Of a DNA stretch of 64,000 bases, positions 5,380 to 59,440 are shown in pieces; the first letter of the stretch is position 1; each line of letters opens with the position of its first letter. Position numbers and translations under genes: made by a program. The notes beneath the pieces were generated by a model. The model was not told where the DNA came from, did not search any database, and saw only the letters and a list, made by a program, of their open reading frames with translations. Source of the stretch: Gemmatimonadaceae bacterium (GTDB taxonomy: Bacteria; Gemmatimonadota; Gemmatimonadetes; Gemmatimonadales; Gemmatimonadaceae); contig JBBEBQ010000025.1 of assembly GCA_040882285.1 (NCBI GenBank), positions 62,001-126,000 of the forward strand. Reading direction: 5' to 3'.

Positions 5380-5392
5380 CAGGAACGGCGCT

Positions 5393-5471
5393 CTTGGCTG
5401 TTGGCTCTTGGCTGTTGGTCACTCCAACTGCCAACAATAAGCCAATAGCCAACAGCCAATAGCCAATAGCT
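5393..5471. repeat. Heptamer-built inverted repeat (TTGGCTN)n
   Basis: The left side is made of 7-base units TTGGCTG, TTGGCTC, TTGGCTG, TTGGTCA. The right side is made of the complementary units GCCAATA and GCCAACA, repeated. The two sides can pair into a long hairpin around a short ACTCCAACT centre. The repeat fills the gap between pgi and the aldolase gene and ends only about 6 bases before the aldolase ATG, leaving no room for a usual ribosome site. It could act as a terminator or RNA-processing site. A similar unit lies at 57388-57523. Confidence 0.8.
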
Positions 5472-16899: not shown

Positions 16900-18000
16900 A
16901 TGGCGCAGAAGGATTTCTACGCGGTCCTGGGACTGACCTCGAAGGCGACCGCCGACGAGATCAAGAAGGCGTACCGCAAGCTCGCTAAGCAGTACCACCC
17001 GGACGCGAACAGCAGCGATCCGAAGGCCGCCGAGCGGTTCAAGGAGATCTCGGAGGCGCACAACGTCCTCGGCGATCCGGAGAAGCGGAAGAAGTACGAC
17101 GAGATGCGCAGTCTCGGCGCATTCGACGGCTTCACCCGCGGGCGGCGCGGCGCGTCGCAGCCGCGCGGCGGCTCGTCGATCAACTTCGAGGACTTCGACA
17201 TCGGCGGTCTGGGCGGGCTCGGTGACCTGTTCGGCTCGATGTTCGGCGGCGGGGCGAAGCAGCGGTCGCGCGCCCCCGAGCAGGGGCAGTCGGTGGAGAC
17301 GATGCTCGACGTCCCGTTCCGGACAGCCGTACTCGGCGGCAAGGTGCCGGTGGAGATGGAGGTGAGCGAGCAGTGCGCGACCTGCGGCGGCACGGGCGGC
17401 GCGCCGGGCAGCTCCGCGAAGGTTTGCGCCGAGTGCAATGGACGCGGGGTGTTGTCGTTCGCGCAGGGCGGGTTCGCGGTGAACCGGCCCTGCCCAGTGT
17501 GTCTCGGCAAGGGACAGGTCCCGTCGGAGCCGTGCAGGACGTGCGCGGGCCGCGGCGAGATCAGCAGCCGGAAGAAGGTGCTCATCACCGTTCCGCCGGG
17601 AACCGACACCGGCTCGAAGATCCGGATGAAAGGGCAGGGCGGGCGCGGACGGAACGGCGGTCCGGCCGGCGACCTCGTCATCGTGTTCAAGGTGAAGCCC
17701 GACAGGTTCTACACGCGCGAAGGGCTCGATCTCGTGGCCAAGGTGCCGATCAACATCGCGCAGGCGACGCTGGGCTCGAAGATCAACGTGAAGTCGATCG
17801 ACGGAAAGAAGGTGAGTCTGCGGATCCCCGCCGGCACGCCGGCCGGCAAGCGGTTCCGGGTGCGGGGACTGGGAGTGCAGAAGGACACCGCGCGCGGGGA
17901 TCTGATGGTCGAGGTGAGCGTGTCGGTGCCGGAGGAGCTGTCAGCGGAGCAGAAGAAGGCGATGGAGGATTTCGCGGCGGCGGGAGGGTTGAAGTACTAG
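16900..18000 (+). CDS. dnaJ: Chaperone protein DnaJ
   Basis: The 366-residue class I J-protein has a J domain with the HPD motif near residues 33-35 (YHPDANSSD). A short Gly/Phe region follows (GGLGGLGDLFGSMFGGG). The zinc domain has four CxxCxGxG-type repeats (CATCGG, CAECNG, CPVCLG, CRTCAG) between about residues 155 and 220. The substrate-binding C-terminal domains are complete. It stimulates DnaK ATPase and delivers clients. An inverted repeat begins 20 bases downstream. Confidence 0.95.
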   Translation: MAQKDFYAVLGLTSKATADEIKKAYRKLAKQYHPDANSSDPKAAERFKEISEAHNVLGDPEKRKKYDEMRSLGAFDGFTRGRRGASQPRGGSSINFEDFDIGGLGGLGDLFGSMFGGGAKQRSRAPEQGQSVETMLDVPFRTAVLGGKVPVEMEVSEQCATCGGTGGAPGSSAKVCAECNGRGVLSFAQGGFAVNRPCPVCLGKGQVPSEPCRTCAGRGEISSRKKVLITVPPGTDTGSKIRMKGQGGRGRNGGPAGDLVIVFKVKPDRFYTREGLDLVAKVPINIAQATLGSKINVKSIDGKKVSLRIPAGTPAGKRFRVRGLGVQKDTARGDLMVEVSVSVPEELSAEQKKAMEDFAAAGGLKY

Positions 18001-18019
18001 CGCGAGATTCCGAAAAGCA

Positions 18020-18071
18020 GGGTTCGGGCAACAGGTTTCTGGTTCTGGGTTTTCGGTTAACTGACCGGTTG
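18020..18071 (+). repeat. Left inverted repeat of the four-helix-bundle unit
   Basis: About 52 bases beginning GGGTTCGGGCAACAGG and ending GACCGGTTG are repeated in inverted form at 18581-18632, with about 80 percent identity by eye and one gap. GGTTNNN-type units recur about every 7 bases. It starts 20 bases after the dnaJ stop. Confidence 0.75.
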
Positions 18072-18174
18072 CAAGGTGACCCGGTCAAGGGTTCATGGTG
18101 TCGGTCGGAATGCTCCGGTTGTGTGCAGGATTGATTGGTTAGATACGGAGCGGTGCGTTCCGAGACTTTTCGGA

Positions 18175-18591
18175 ATGCAGGATCACCGTAAGCTGCGCGT
18201 CTGGAAACACGCCCACGAGCTTGCACTCGTGGTGCGCGCAGCTACGAAAAGTTTTCCTTCGACCGGATACGGGTCGCTTCAGTCGCAGACGGTGCGGGCT
18301 GCGGAATCGATCGTGTTCAACATCGCCGAAGGTTGCGGCGCGGGGTCCCAGCGGGAATTTGCGCGCTTCCTTGGCATCGGCATCAAGTCCACTTTTGAGC
18401 TTGAAGCTGAGTGCGAGCTCGCCAAGGACTATGGCGTGTTGAGCGCGCCGGCCTGGGAAGATCTCTCGCAGCAAATCGGCAGCGCGCGGCGCATGCTCTT
18501 CGCCTTGAGAAACAAAGTCCTCCTTTCCCCCCACGCGGCACGCATGAACCTCAAACCTTCAACCGCTAACCGTGAACCGTCCACCAATTAG
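18175..18591 (+). CDS. Four-helix-bundle protein (S23/IVS type)
   Basis: The 138-residue product has the typical opening DHRKLRVWKHAHELALVV, then SLQSQTVRAAESIVFNIAEG and the conserved EFARFLGIGIKSTFELE. This family occurs inside 23S rRNA intervening sequences and also as stand-alone genes, and is related in fold to the Avd accessory proteins of diversity-generating retroelements. No 23S sequence or reverse transcriptase is nearby. Start ATG 18175 is chosen by family alignment. The last residues (NLKPSTANREPSTN) are encoded by the heptamer repeats of the right arm. The flanking inverted repeats suggest a mobile unit. Confidence 0.88.
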   Translation: MQDHRKLRVWKHAHELALVVRAATKSFPSTGYGSLQSQTVRAAESIVFNIAEGCGAGSQREFARFLGIGIKSTFELEAECELAKDYGVLSAPAWEDLSQQIGSARRMLFALRNKVLLSPHAARMNLKPSTANREPSTN

Positions 18592-18632
18592 TTAACCGGA
18601 CACCTGGAACCAAGAACCTGTTGCCCGGACCC
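18581..18632 (-). repeat. Right inverted repeat of the four-helix-bundle unit
   Basis: This is the reverse complement of the left arm: on the minus strand it reads GGGTCCGGGCAACAGG and ends near GGTTAACTAATTGGTGG. Further minus-strand heptamers (ACGGTTC, ACGGTTA, GCGGTTG, AAGGTTT) continue inside the unit to about 18545, so this arm overlaps the end of the coding region. Confidence 0.75.
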
Positions 18633-18639
18633 GTTTTTA

Positions 18640-19731
18640 TCAGGGCTCGACGACAACGGTTGCTTTCATCTGCGGGTGCGGCTCGCAATGGTAGGGAAAC
18701 GACCCAGCCTGGGTGAACCGGTACGTGAACCTCCCGCCCTGATTGACGAACCCGCTCCCCCAGCTCTTGTCGTCCGCGGTCACCGTGTGCGCCAGCGGAT
18801 CGCCGTTCACCCATTCGACCGTCTGCCCGACCTTGATGCGCAGCGTAGCCGGCGAGAACGCGAGGTCCTTGATGTTCACCCGCACTGTCGCACCTTCGGC
18901 CAGCTCCGCGGCCGGCTGGGGTGTGGGCGCGCTTCTGCGGAATATCCGCGACCACTGGGAAGCGGTGCCGAGGGGCGCGACGAAGGCGAAGCCGTACCGG
19001 ACCGGCTCCGGTCCGTACGCCTTCTTCCGCGACGTTCCCTGGAGGGTCACCGCTCCTCCGTTCGTGGCGTGGAACGAGAAGTGGTGGCGGGTGCCGGGAA
19101 ACGCGAACGCGATCGCGCCGCTCCACACGGTTCCCATCGTGTCCGGAGTGAAAGCGCGGCCGACGTCGCCGGCGAGCGCGAGATATTCGGTGAGATGGAA
19201 GACGGCGCCGGCGGCGCCGGCGAATCCGCCGTCGCCGGTACCGAACGCGTCGGAGAACGCGCGCGCCTCGCCCACGAGCGAGACGAACCCCGCGCGCGCC
19301 CGCGTGGTGATCGCGCCGTCGAAGCTGTTGGCCGCGGTATTGTAGGCGAATAGAGCGCTGATCGCGCCGCGGTTGCCCGACGGCCCGCGATACGCTGCCC
19401 ACCATTGCGTCTCGTTGCCGCCGATGCTTTCGGCGCTCACCTCGCTGTTCGACGTGTAGTCGAGCCCGAGCGCGAGCCGGCTGCCGAGCGCGGTGCCGAA
19501 GGTCATCGTCGGAATGCTGATCAGCTCGTCGCCCCCTTCGACCAGCTCGAAGCGGTGCGACAGGATCAGGGCCGGCTGCCACCTGTCCAGGGTCCAGGCC
19601 GGGCGCGTATTGGGGGTGTAATCAATGAGTCGCTGGCCGGCGAGCGACGCCGGCGCCGCGGCCAGCAGTGCCAGCGCGGCGACGCGGACGCCGCGCGCTG
19701 CGCGGCGTCCGCCTGAGTGGATTTCCGTCAT
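18640..19731 (-). CDS. Exported protein with C-terminal cupredoxin domain
   Basis: The 363-residue protein starts at an ATG overlapping the upstream cupredoxin stop (ATGA), so the two are translationally coupled. A signal peptide ending near PASLAGQ is followed by about 250 residues of alternating aromatic and small residues that look like an outer-membrane beta-barrel or a large beta-domain. The last 85 residues form a plastocyanin-like domain (FSPATLRIKVGQTVEW). Its copper ligands are visible: His in LAHTVT, then Cys, His and Met in YHCEPHPQM. It may receive electrons from, or pass copper to, the lipoprotein encoded just upstream. Confidence 0.78.
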   Translation of the reverse strand: MTEIHSGGRRAARGVRVAALALLAAAPASLAGQRLIDYTPNTRPAWTLDRWQPALILSHRFELVEGGDELISIPTMTFGTALGSRLALGLDYTSNSEVSAESIGGNETQWWAAYRGPSGNRGAISALFAYNTAANSFDGAITTRARAGFVSLVGEARAFSDAFGTGDGGFAGAAGAVFHLTEYLALAGDVGRAFTPDTMGTVWSGAIAFAFPGTRHHFSFHATNGGAVTLQGTSRKKAYGPEPVRYGFAFVAPLGTASQWSRIFRRSAPTPQPAAELAEGATVRVNIKDLAFSPATLRIKVGQTVEWVNGDPLAHTVTADDKSWGSGFVNQGGRFTYRFTQAGSFPYHCEPHPQMKATVVVEP

Positions 19732-20111
19732 TGGACTACGACTGATCCGTTCATTCCCCCGTGCAGCGTGCAGCTGAAGTTGAACGTGCCGGCCGTGCCG
19801 AACGTGCGCTGGTTGCTTCCGGAGCTGTGATCGCCGATGTTGGCCGGCGCGCCCGTAGTCGCCGCGAAGGTGACGTTGTGCGTGATCCCACTGGTGTTGT
19901 TCCATGTGACCGTGCCGTTGACCGCGATCGTCACGCTGGCCGGGGCGAAGGAAGCCGCGCCCATGGTAAACGTCGATCCGGACGGCGGTGGCGGTGGTGG
20001 AGGAGGTGGAGGGGGTGGGGGAGTTATGTCGCCGCCCCCTCCACCGCCGCACGCAAGAACCGCGCTGAAGACCATTGCTCTCAACGACCACGGACGAAGT
20101 GCTGACATCAT
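19728..20111 (-). CDS. Cupredoxin (plastocyanin-like) lipoprotein
   Basis: The 127-residue protein starts at the first of two ATG codons after a GGAGG site. A type II signal peptide ends in a lipobox (VLAC, residues 19-22), followed by a poly-Gly and then a long poly-Pro linker. The blue-copper domain follows (FAPASVTIAVNGTVTWNN), with ligands His in ITHNVTF, then Cys, His and Met in FSCTLHGGM. Such proteins carry electrons or copper at the membrane surface. It is the first gene of a two-gene operon and is divergent from an AraC-type regulator. Confidence 0.85.
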   Translation of the reverse strand: MMSALRPWSLRAMVFSAVLACGGGGGGDITPPPPPPPPPPPPPSGSTFTMGAASFAPASVTIAVNGTVTWNNTSGITHNVTFAATTGAPANIGDHSSGSNQRTFGTAGTFNFSCTLHGGMNGSVVVQ

Positions 20112-20146
20112 GGATGTTCCTCCTGTGTGGTTTACCGGAGCAGAAT

Positions 20147-20168
20147 ACCGCCGCAGGCCCGCGGCGGT
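20147..20168. promoter_or_regulatory. Inverted repeat in the divergent cupredoxin/araC interval
   Basis: A perfect 8-base palindrome, ACCGCCGC and GCGGCGGT, is separated by 6 bases. It lies about 36 bases upstream of the cupredoxin start and about 90 bases upstream of the AraC-type start. It could be an operator or a transcript hairpin. The role is inferred only from position. Confidence 0.4.
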
Positions 20169-20257
20169 CTTGTAGGACACGCCGGACGTTGGACGCGCGT
20201 GACCCTCGGCCAATTCGGCTGTTGCGCGGGCACGAGCGATGCTGCGATGTTGCAGAC

Positions 20258-21088
20258 GTGAGCACCAACGGCTCGGACCTGGATCGCGCTGCGCGCTACC
20301 GCTCGCGGATGATGAGCGTGCCCGGCTTCTCGCTGTACCGGGGCGTCCATCCGCAGGGGACGGAGCTGCCCAGGCACATGCACGACGACCCCACGTTGTG
20401 TTACGTGCTGCGCGGCCGCTTCACGGAATACGTGGGCGGGCAGGCGGTGGACTGCCTGTCGGACTCGCTCAAGGTGACGCCCGCCGGCGAGACCCACTGG
20501 AACCGGTTCGGCGCGAGCGAAACGCACGGGCTTCGAATCGACGTGGACCGCCGCCGCTTCGTTGACTCCCGTCCCATTCACCAGCTGCTCGACGAGCGCA
20601 TTCACGTATCCGGCGCGCACGCCGGCAGCATCGTCAACCGGCTGCTCGCCGAGCTCGATGCCGGCGACGAGTCCGCGGCGATCGCGATCGAGGGGCTGCT
20701 GCTCGAGCTACTCGCGACGCTCGCGCGGGAACCCATGCCCGTGAGCCCGGCGGACATGCCGCGCTGGCTGCACGAGGCGGACGAGATGATTCGCGAGCTC
20801 TACCCGTCCAAGATCGCGCTCAGCGGAGTGGCACGGGCAGTCGGTGTGGCACCGGCGACGCTAGCGAGAAGCTACCGGTCGGCTTTCCGGATCACGGTAG
20901 GGGAGCGCATCCGGCAGCTGCGGATCGAGCGCGCCGTGCGCGACCTGCTGGAGAGCGAAGAGCCGCTGTCCTCGGTTGCGCTGCGCGCCGGGTTCTACGA
21001 CCAGAGTCATTTCACGAATCTTTTCAAGCGGCGCTTCGGGGTGACTCCGGCGCAGTACCGGCTCGCCGCGAATCGCCGGGTGGGCTGA
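20258..21088 (+). CDS. AraC-family transcriptional regulator
   Basis: The 276-residue protein has an N-terminal cupin-like sensor (PRHMHDDPTLCYVLRG, then VTPAGETHWNRFG). Its C-terminal AraC DNA-binding domain has two helix-turn-helix motifs (ALSGVARAVGVAPATLARSYR, and LSSVALRAGFYDQSHFTNLFKRRFGVTP). The GTG at 20258 is the most likely start, though the ribosome site is weak and ATG at about 20309 is possible. It is divergent from the cupredoxin operon, so control of that operon is plausible but unproven. The clustered His and Cys residues in the sensor could bind metal. Confidence 0.85.
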   Translation: MSTNGSDLDRAARYRSRMMSVPGFSLYRGVHPQGTELPRHMHDDPTLCYVLRGRFTEYVGGQAVDCLSDSLKVTPAGETHWNRFGASETHGLRIDVDRRRFVDSRPIHQLLDERIHVSGAHAGSIVNRLLAELDAGDESAAIAIEGLLLELLATLAREPMPVSPADMPRWLHEADEMIRELYPSKIALSGVARAVGVAPATLARSYRSAFRITVGERIRQLRIERAVRDLLESEEPLSSVALRAGFYDQSHFTNLFKRRFGVTPAQYRLAANRRVG

Positions 21089-32802: not shown

Positions 32803-32973
32803 TGGCTACCGGAATGCTGAAGGGGAATCCAGGCCGTGAGCAGCGAGCTGTTAGCGTTGAGCTTTCAGCAACGGCGATATGGGACGTTACGTCCGAATCG
32901 CAGTTGCCTGACGGCTCAGTGCTCATGGCTCGTTGCTCACGGCCTGGATTCCCTTTCAGCATTTTCGTAGCCA
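32803..32973. repeat. Full-length copy of the TGGCTAC-ended interspersed element
   Basis: The ends are TGGCTAC and GTAGCCA. The arms are inverted copies for about 50 bases (GGAATGCTGAAGGGGAATCC, then AGGCCGTGAGC, against AATGCTGAAAGGGAATCC on the other strand). Inside the arms GCT/AGC units recur with about 7-base spacing. The centre holds a GGACGTTACGTCC palindrome and the CCGAATCGCAGTTG motif. No ORF or clear target-site duplication was seen. It lies between bshB1 and an ABC permease gene. Confidence 0.8.
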
Positions 32974-57387: not shown

Positions 57388-57523
57388 AACAGCTATTGGC
57401 TATTGGCTGTTGGCTCTTAGCCTGTTGCGGAGAACGGGAACTGCAAGTCCATGGGGTAGTTAGTAGTTATCAGTAGCCAATAGCCAATAGCCAATAGCCA
57501 ATAGCCAATAGCCAACAGCTCCC
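57388..57523. repeat. Heptamer-built inverted repeat pair (TTGGCTN)n
   Basis: The left array (57388-57425) is CTATTGG, CTATTGG, CTGTTGG and CTCTTAG. The right array (57473-57523) holds at least six GCCAATA/GCCAACA heptamers in the opposite sense. About 47 bases of non-repetitive sequence lie between. The same heptamers build 5393-5471. It fills the gap between the aldehyde dehydrogenase and lepB genes and carries no ORF. Confidence 0.82.
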
Positions 57524-59242: not shown

Positions 59243-59440
59243 GGCTCCGAGAGCGGCCCGGCGGAATCCAGGCAGTTAGCTCTGAGCCGTTGGCCGTCAG
59301 CGGTCAGTAACCGACATATCGGACGTTCCATGGATTTGGCCGGCAAAATCCGCTGCACGTCCGAATCGCAGTTGCTGACGGCTAAGAGCTGAATGCTCAA
59401 AGCTCACGGCCTGGATTCCCCATCCAAATTCCTGGACCCA
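59243..59440. repeat. Near full-length, diverged copy of the TGGCTAC-ended element
   Basis: The left end CGGCTCCGAGAGCGG, then GGCGGAATCCAGGCAG, is mirrored by the right end CACGGCCTGGATTCCCC, then ATTCCTGGACCCA. The centre contains CGACATATCGGACGTTCC and ACGTCCGAATCGCAGTTG, the latter shared with 32803-32973. Inner GCT/AGC units again recur at about 7-base steps. It is longer than the other full copy because of a GGATTTGGCCGGCAAAATCC palindrome in the middle. No ORF is present. Confidence 0.75.

Follow-up and report, generated by a model that had tools for sequence, protein, structure and literature searches.

What is a gene of the 23S rRNA intervening sequence (IVS) protein family doing directly behind dnaJ, enclosed by long inverted repeats and with no rRNA in its vicinity? 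This question is raised by a 64,000-nt stretch of DNA from a Gemmatimonadaceae bacterium (assembly GCA_040882285.1, contig JBBEBQ010000025.1, positions 62,001 to 126,000), in the following called the window. We consider it fairly probable that the feature, a PF05635 gene within inverted arrays of 7-nt units (heptads), is one copy of a mobile unit that resembles both the IVS and the REPtron and that is accompanied by gene-less satellites. The window unit (L001) consists of three parts:

18020 to 18069, plus strand: left arm of the inverted repeat; gapped extension about 18013 to 18099; degenerate heptads with a GGT core
18175 to 18591, plus strand: PF05635/TIGR02436 four-helix-bundle gene; ATG at 18175, stop codon TAG at 18589 to 18591, 138 aa
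18583 to 18632, plus strand: right arm of the inverted repeat; gapped extension about 18555 to 18638; overlaps the last codons of the gene

The arms found by repeat search are 50 nt long each and 80% complementary, and gapped alignment lengthens them. Their local-alignment score of 38 compares with maxima of 23 in 1000 dinucleotide shuffles and of 26 at 393 slid window positions, which confirms that the inverted repeat is far above chance; a chance or simple inverted repeat is excluded by these controls. Direct reading places the last 12 codons of the gene inside the right arm, which hence encodes the C-terminal tail of the protein. An earlier inspection of the letters alone, here termed the sequence-only reading, had described a four-helix-bundle gene between repeats about 80% identical, a tail encoded by the repeat and a position just after dnaJ, and our results agree with it on all of these. 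What it had not described is the 7-nt phase of the arms (GGTnnnn, degenerate, by inspection) and their membership in a dispersed repeat family.

The gene belongs to PF05635 (E=1.1e-25, 90.3 bits at a cut-off of 33.8) and to TIGR02436 (E=1.4e-24, 86.4 bits, cut-off 24). Its product is the sole recognised protein between the arms, and the unit carries no transposase gene of its own. The structure predicted with AlphaFold2 is a four-helix bundle (predicted local distance difference test, pLDDT, 93.4) that matches Xcc0516 (2gsc_D) with a template modelling (TM) score of 0.92 and also matches 2rld; a more distant match is to the Avd chains in the ribonucleoprotein of a diversity-generating retroelement (DGR; 8ub7, TM ~0.8 on target length). 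Six alignment columns in helices 2 and 3 (Q37, S44, N48, E51, S71 and E74) are polar and invariant across phyla, which would be unusual if the bundle were purely structural. The window unit shares with 23S rRNA IVS the complementary termini around an open reading frame (ORF). It does not share their location in a 23S helix, as a search with Rfam found no rRNA family at 16.5-20.5 kb. An rRNA IVS that is still in place is excluded, because there is no rRNA nearby and the gene lies between dnaJ and a convergent gene.

The feature at dnaJ is an insertion, and gene and arms were shown to have been inserted as one block. We compared the source genome (G000; 2.89 Mb in 27 contigs, 96.6% complete, of which 1.585 Mb or 55% were read for repeats) with its congeners G006, G039 and G061; the relatives are draft genomes, one per species, with loci picked by homology. 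The insertion site is flanked by:

16900 to 18000, plus strand: dnaJ, left flank; stop codon 20 nt before the left arm
18640 to 20268, minus strand: convergent downstream gene, right flank; cupredoxin-like C-terminus by inspection; orthologous flank in G006, G039 and G061

At this site the unit is present in G000 and G006, G039 retains only a remnant of the right end (flanks 90-93% identical), and G061 is empty with 33 nt between the flanking genes. Elsewhere in its genome, G061 carries a unit of the same repeat family whose gene is related (74% DNA identity). Three more PF05635 sites that are occupied in G006 or G061 have no gene in G000, and two of these hold a heptad array or the hairpin of another family instead. 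The same pattern was found on cyanobacterial plasmids. On a plasmid of Calothrix brevissima NIES-22 a unit separates an integrase gene from the ORF that follows, and these two lie almost directly side by side in Tolypothrix PCC 7601, Aulosira laxa and Nostoc carneum. The plasmids of Nostoc C052 and N. edaphicum carry a unit after a TraM-domain gene where Nostoc C057 is empty and Nostoc ATCC 53789 has a gene-less heptad hairpin, and on N. edaphicum plasmid pNe_5 a unit (L399) lies in opposite orientation between nrdB and nrdA, a site that is empty in Calothrix NIES-4105. The proposal of the sequence-only reading that this is an inserted unit is therefore supported by occupied, remnant and empty sites, including an empty site downstream of dnaJ, which it had suggested looking for in relatives.

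Its proposal of a minimal, lone cassette did not hold, since the unit belongs to a large family with gene-less satellites. The 9-10 PF05635 copies in G000 lead us to reject a unique cassette at dnaJ, and between 1 and 14 copies occur in 79 of 99 genomes of the family. Most copies in G000 are flanked by inverted repeats with a different sequence at each. Matching inverted flanks in relatives had also been suggested as a check, and for 39 loci from the family the mean flank score was 35 compared with 18 for mismatched flanks, with 27 of the 39 above the 95th percentile of the control. A set of 80 loci from many phyla (Proteobacteria, Bacteroidota, Cyanobacteria, Planctomycetota, Chloroflexota, Acidobacteriota, Bacillota, Spirochaetota, the candidate phyla radiation and others) gave a mean inverted-flank score of 27.6 against 14.7 for 1073 slid controls; 47 loci exceeded the 95th and 24 the 99th percentile of these controls. 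The flanks with clear periodicity (n=53) repeated at a lag of 7 in 46 cases and of 8 in five, while only 18 of the 1073 controls were periodic. Aligned arms revealed units specific to their locus, among others GTCGGGA, GGGTGTA, GTCGGCA, GTATTGA, GGGAATA and GTGCATA, and left and right heptads agreed within one base at 12 of 16 loci. Inverted arrays were present near the ORF in all six PF05635 copies examined on cyanobacterial plasmids; the phage records contained no PF05635 relative. The domain list of a CRISPR discovery pipeline includes the 23S rRNA intervening sequence protein (IVP) (PMC10910872), and heptad arrays beside PF05635 genes may have entered that pipeline as repeat arrays.

Hairpins of such families also occur without a gene, four of them inside the window:

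5390 to 5463, no strand: gene-less hairpin of the GGCTRTT heptad family, the family of a PF05635 unit outside the window (L006, G000 C25:172445)
32803 to 32973, no strand: gene-less hairpin with 66-nt arms, containing GGAATCCAGGC...GCCTGGATTCC; family of the hairpin at 59263 to 59419
57391 to 57520, no strand: gene-less hairpin of the GGCTRTT heptad family
59263 to 59419, no strand: gene-less hairpin with GGAATCC at its ends; a further family of this kind

The hairpins at 32803 to 32973 and 59263 to 59419 have GGAATCCAGGC...GCCTGGATTCC ends, and GGAATCC or GGATTCC is also found at the outer end of three PF05635 units of G000 (L003, L008 and L009).

In the 1.585 Mb of G000 we counted 105-108 arrays with a lag of 7, compared with at most 14 for any other lag from 4 to 13, and these arrays fall into few families (GTGACTA, GGCTRTT, ACGCAGC and AGCAGCT). 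The GGCTRTT element has a defined shape: 74 of its 104 arms consist of four units, 36 of 38 neighbouring pairs are in inverted order, and the spacer mostly measures ~38-45 nt; unit L006 is a GGCTRTT hairpin whose 478-nt spacer contains the PF05635 gene. Matches to the arms of a unit elsewhere in the genome exceeded the largest count among 20 random segments for L003 (15 vs 8), L006 (70 vs 17; control mean 2.2) and L007 (25 vs 19). They equalled the maximum of random segments for L005 (16) and were not above the control for L002 and L062like; these counts leave out L004, L008 and L009, for which unsuitable arms had been selected. In G006 the arms of the window unit have 29 matches, most of which form gene-less palindromes 150-175 bp long; ~14 of these palindromes have the ends of the window unit. 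Dispersed gene-less palindromes with the ends of a coding unit are the layout known from repetitive extragenic palindromic (REP) sequences and their REP-associated tyrosine transposases (RAYT). The hairpins are short, non-coding, bounded by terminal inverted repeats and present in many copies, like satellites of the miniature inverted-repeat transposable element (MITE) type. They further share tandem 7-nt units with heptameric intergenic repeats, strictly in other units and in degenerate form in the window arms.

Which part of the hairpin is conserved is indicated by nine hairpins of the L003 family. Their motifs follow one another every 7-8 nt without variation in either arm, while the two-base spacers between them are paired in 13 of 54 cases, which is the chance level. 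Selection of the stem for pairing was rejected on this ground, as pairing looks secondary; in the L006/L020/L040 family some heptads change jointly in both arms. At one site in G061 (C189, L369/L376, the orthologue of G000 C25:214503) a hairpin of the CCGCTA family is inserted in the loop of a hairpin of the GTGATCA family. Together with the IVS in rRNA helices, this nested arrangement hints at a preference for hairpin loops.

The number of PF05635 genes and the load of heptads go together. Over the 99 family genomes, hits to a heptad probe correlated with PF05635 count (Spearman rho 0.60, p 5e-11; 0.75 over 35 genera and 0.36 within genera), and did not correlate with RAYT/Y1 transposase (-0.01) or reverse transcriptase (0.03). 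None of the 20 genomes free of PF05635 reached five probe hits, compared with 28 of the 79 others, and random 20-kb samples from PF05635-free genomes contained no array in 381 kb. A lineage of the protein tends to retain a heptad of its own. When units at different sites were compared in pairs, the heptads agreed within one base in 75% of 12 pairs with protein identity of at least 70% (several of them cyanobacterial and not all independent), in 27% of 37 pairs at 60-70% identity and in ~2-6% below 60%. The sequence-only reading had seen no transposase or reverse transcriptase near the unit, and this extends to the assembled genome. Y1_Tnp (PF01797), the domain of the REP/RAYT transposase, had no hit in G000, G006, G039 or G061, and RVT_1 (PF00078), the reverse transcriptase domain of DGRs, had none in G000, G039 or G061. 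Four genomes that have Y1_Tnp and lack PF05635 (G003, G030, G055 and G076) gave no heptad probe hits.

Sites shared between congeners carry different heptads. At G000 C25:210126 and its orthologous sites in G039, G006 and G061, hairpins in the four congeners have four heptads (GTGACTG, GTGATTA, AGGTATC and AGGTATT); for the three congeners, heptad counts come from loci chosen by similarity to PF05635 or to one region of G000. The heptad at such a site tends to match the PF05635 unit of the same species, as in G061 with GTGATCA both at unit L018 and at C189, and in G006 with AGGTATC both at unit L023 and at the C25:210126 site. Either repeated hits on the site or a rewriting of the arrays could account for these differences. 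The orthologous PF05635 units L004 (G000) and L018 (G061) share one site and differ in their heptads on both arms (GTGACTA vs GTGATCA). The orthologue of unit L004 in G039 is split by an assembly break within its inverted repeat, where the contig ends L051 and L063 have a 47-nt inverted overlap.

How might such a unit spread? The PF05635 protein, an oligomeric four-helix bundle related to Avd, would recognise the arm motif repeated every 7-8 nt, possibly in the form of RNA or single-stranded DNA. Invariant motifs next to unpaired spacers fit a protein that reads a repeated motif better than they fit selection to keep the stem perfect. The solved structure of the relative Xcc0516 comprises five four-helix bundles, according to the title of a paper cited in PMC10053308, which makes it plausible that an oligomer contacts successive heptads of single-stranded RNA or DNA. 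Recognition may then help the protein's own unit, and the satellites without a gene, to be copied or inserted at the ends of genes and into hairpins already present. With no transposase, RAYT or reverse transcriptase found in G000, the chemistry would have to come from elsewhere, and the catalytic steps could be supplied by host enzymes of replication or repair. The 23S rRNA IVS would be a unit of this kind that came to lie in an rRNA helix.

That the protein moves the hairpins is suggested by association. Several observations weigh against it. The flanks of 33 of the 80 loci from many phyla scored below the 95th percentile of the control, and seven genomes with at least seven PF05635 genes scored below 5 with the heptad probe, which misses many heptads. 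None of the three empty plasmid sites revealed a clear target-site duplication (at most TAG/TTAG at one). Copies within the genus are mostly at orthologous sites and diverged, and are for the most part old and vertically inherited. The domain lacks a generally basic character (median pI 6.8), and the protein could be a passenger or regulator. The last point leads to the alternative that we take most seriously, even if we judge it unlikely, namely that the hairpins are an independent dispersed repeat spread by some host or mobile enzyme, with PF05635 genes riding or regulating in some of their loops. Gene-less hairpins are far more numerous than units with a gene, sites are reused by unrelated hairpin families, and Nostoc ATCC 53789 has a gene-less hairpin where two relatives carry the gene. 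This alternative does not readily explain that heptad abundance follows PF05635 number and neither RAYT nor reverse transcriptase, that the protein lineage predicts the heptad across sites and species, and that one genome holds several distinct families, each with its own PF05635 copy. The variant in which a Y1 transposase or a reverse transcriptase drives the spread in trans, the hairpins then being REP/RAYT elements or derived from DGRs, is very improbable. The layout is like that of RAYT genes between inverted REPs and the protein is Avd-like (PMC10053308), yet these enzymes were not found in G000 and are uncorrelated with heptad load, so that we reject them as drivers; the congeners without Y1_Tnp or RVT_1 hits and the Y1-bearing, PF05635-free genomes without probe hits argue likewise.

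A role in regulation would fit the position of many copies. The hairpins at 3′ ends might act as terminators or RNA-stability elements bound by the protein, with presence and absence reflecting ordinary gain and loss. Copies closely follow stop codons (by 20 nt at dnaJ), Xanthomonas heptads are located on average 28 nt after the upstream ORF (PMC4692102), and the RNA of the window unit folds strongly (z -6.15). Such a cassette would hardly be expected to intercalate like an insertion between tightly packed ORFs that have no unit between them in relatives, to show nested and swapped families at one site, or to have spacer positions that do not keep pairing, and we regard it as improbable as the whole account, although regulation and mobility of the unit are not exclusive. 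Hardly worth entertaining is the idea that the arrays are simple-sequence repeats made by slippage, the inverted repeat around the window gene being incidental. The number of units per array does vary between species, and heptameric repeats are over-represented in bacteria (PMC4692102), but the inverted order of neighbouring arrays, the peak at four units, the nearly constant spacer, the recurrence of one heptad at many loci of a genome and the existence of empty sites are against it; as a complete account slippage is refuted by dispersed hairpins of defined shape.

The IVS-like and REPtron-like unit can be compared with several systems described so far. In Coxiella the rRNA IVS measures 428 nt, ends in inverted repeats and contains an S23p/IVP ORF (PMC4990558), and Ralph and McClelland (1993), as cited there, suggested that the IVS is a mobile element whose ORF serves mobility. 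The IVS of Coxiella and Leptospira (PMC4990558) and the units described here share the protein family, an ORF within terminal inverted repeats, a length of ~430-600 nt and a sporadic distribution; the PF05635 units differ in being located outside rRNA, several per genome, with heptad arms and dispersed intergenic gene-less satellites. With the REP/REPIN-RAYT system (REPIN, REP doublets forming hairpins; TnpA-REP; PMC3116915, PMC2817692) they share a coding unit in inverted palindromic repeats, dispersed intergenic gene-less palindromes and an own repeat for each family. The protein here, in contrast, has no HUH/Y1 domain and folds as a four-helix bundle, and the repeat takes the form of a heptad ladder of lineage-specific sequence. 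Heptameric intergenic repeats have been described from Xanthomonas (GGGAATC, 186 arrays with 70 inverted pairs and mostly four units; PMC4692102), Nostoc (GGGGA(T/C)T; PMC4692102) and Beggiatoaceae (TAACTGA; PMC4679880). They are likewise intergenic 7-nt tandem arrays with many inverted pairs just after ORFs, but their published description names no associated gene and no general link to mobile elements (PMC4692102), whereas the arrays here are tied to PF05635. XCC0516 (2gsc) is from the same Xanthomonas species as the GGGAATC heptads. Avd of DGRs (4dwl, 8ub7) has the same fold as the window protein, and G000 has no detected reverse transcriptase. We class the unit with the IVS, as a form that would function in the manner of a REPtron, and it lacks what defines REP/RAYT, DGR and insertion sequence elements.

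Earlier work had described heptads (in Xanthomonas, Nostoc and Beggiatoa) and the protein (as rRNA IVS and Avd-like) separately; we found no published connection between PF05635 and heptad repeats in the literature searched, which mostly excluded subscription papers and preprints. More tentatively, and with a good deal of reserve, we propose a separate class of mobile elements in many phyla, without transposase, recombinase or reverse transcriptase of its own, in which the small oligomeric protein would recognise a heptad ladder in its own inverted arms and drive at least 100 gene-less hairpins per genome as well as their lineage-specific rewriting, the rRNA IVS being its copies in rRNA genes. 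If true, this would provide an agent and a unit of inheritance for two old puzzles, namely the excess of heptameric repeats in bacteria and the orphan S23/IVP genes, which annotation pipelines list as 'four helix bundle protein'. The suggestion from 1993 that the IVS ORF confers mobility becomes testable in culturable hosts such as Nostoc, with occupied, gene-less and empty versions of one site. The differing heptads of congeners at one site would require a copying mechanism as well. If the protein drives the hairpins, a mobile element without recognised catalytic protein would represent a new way for DNA to spread.
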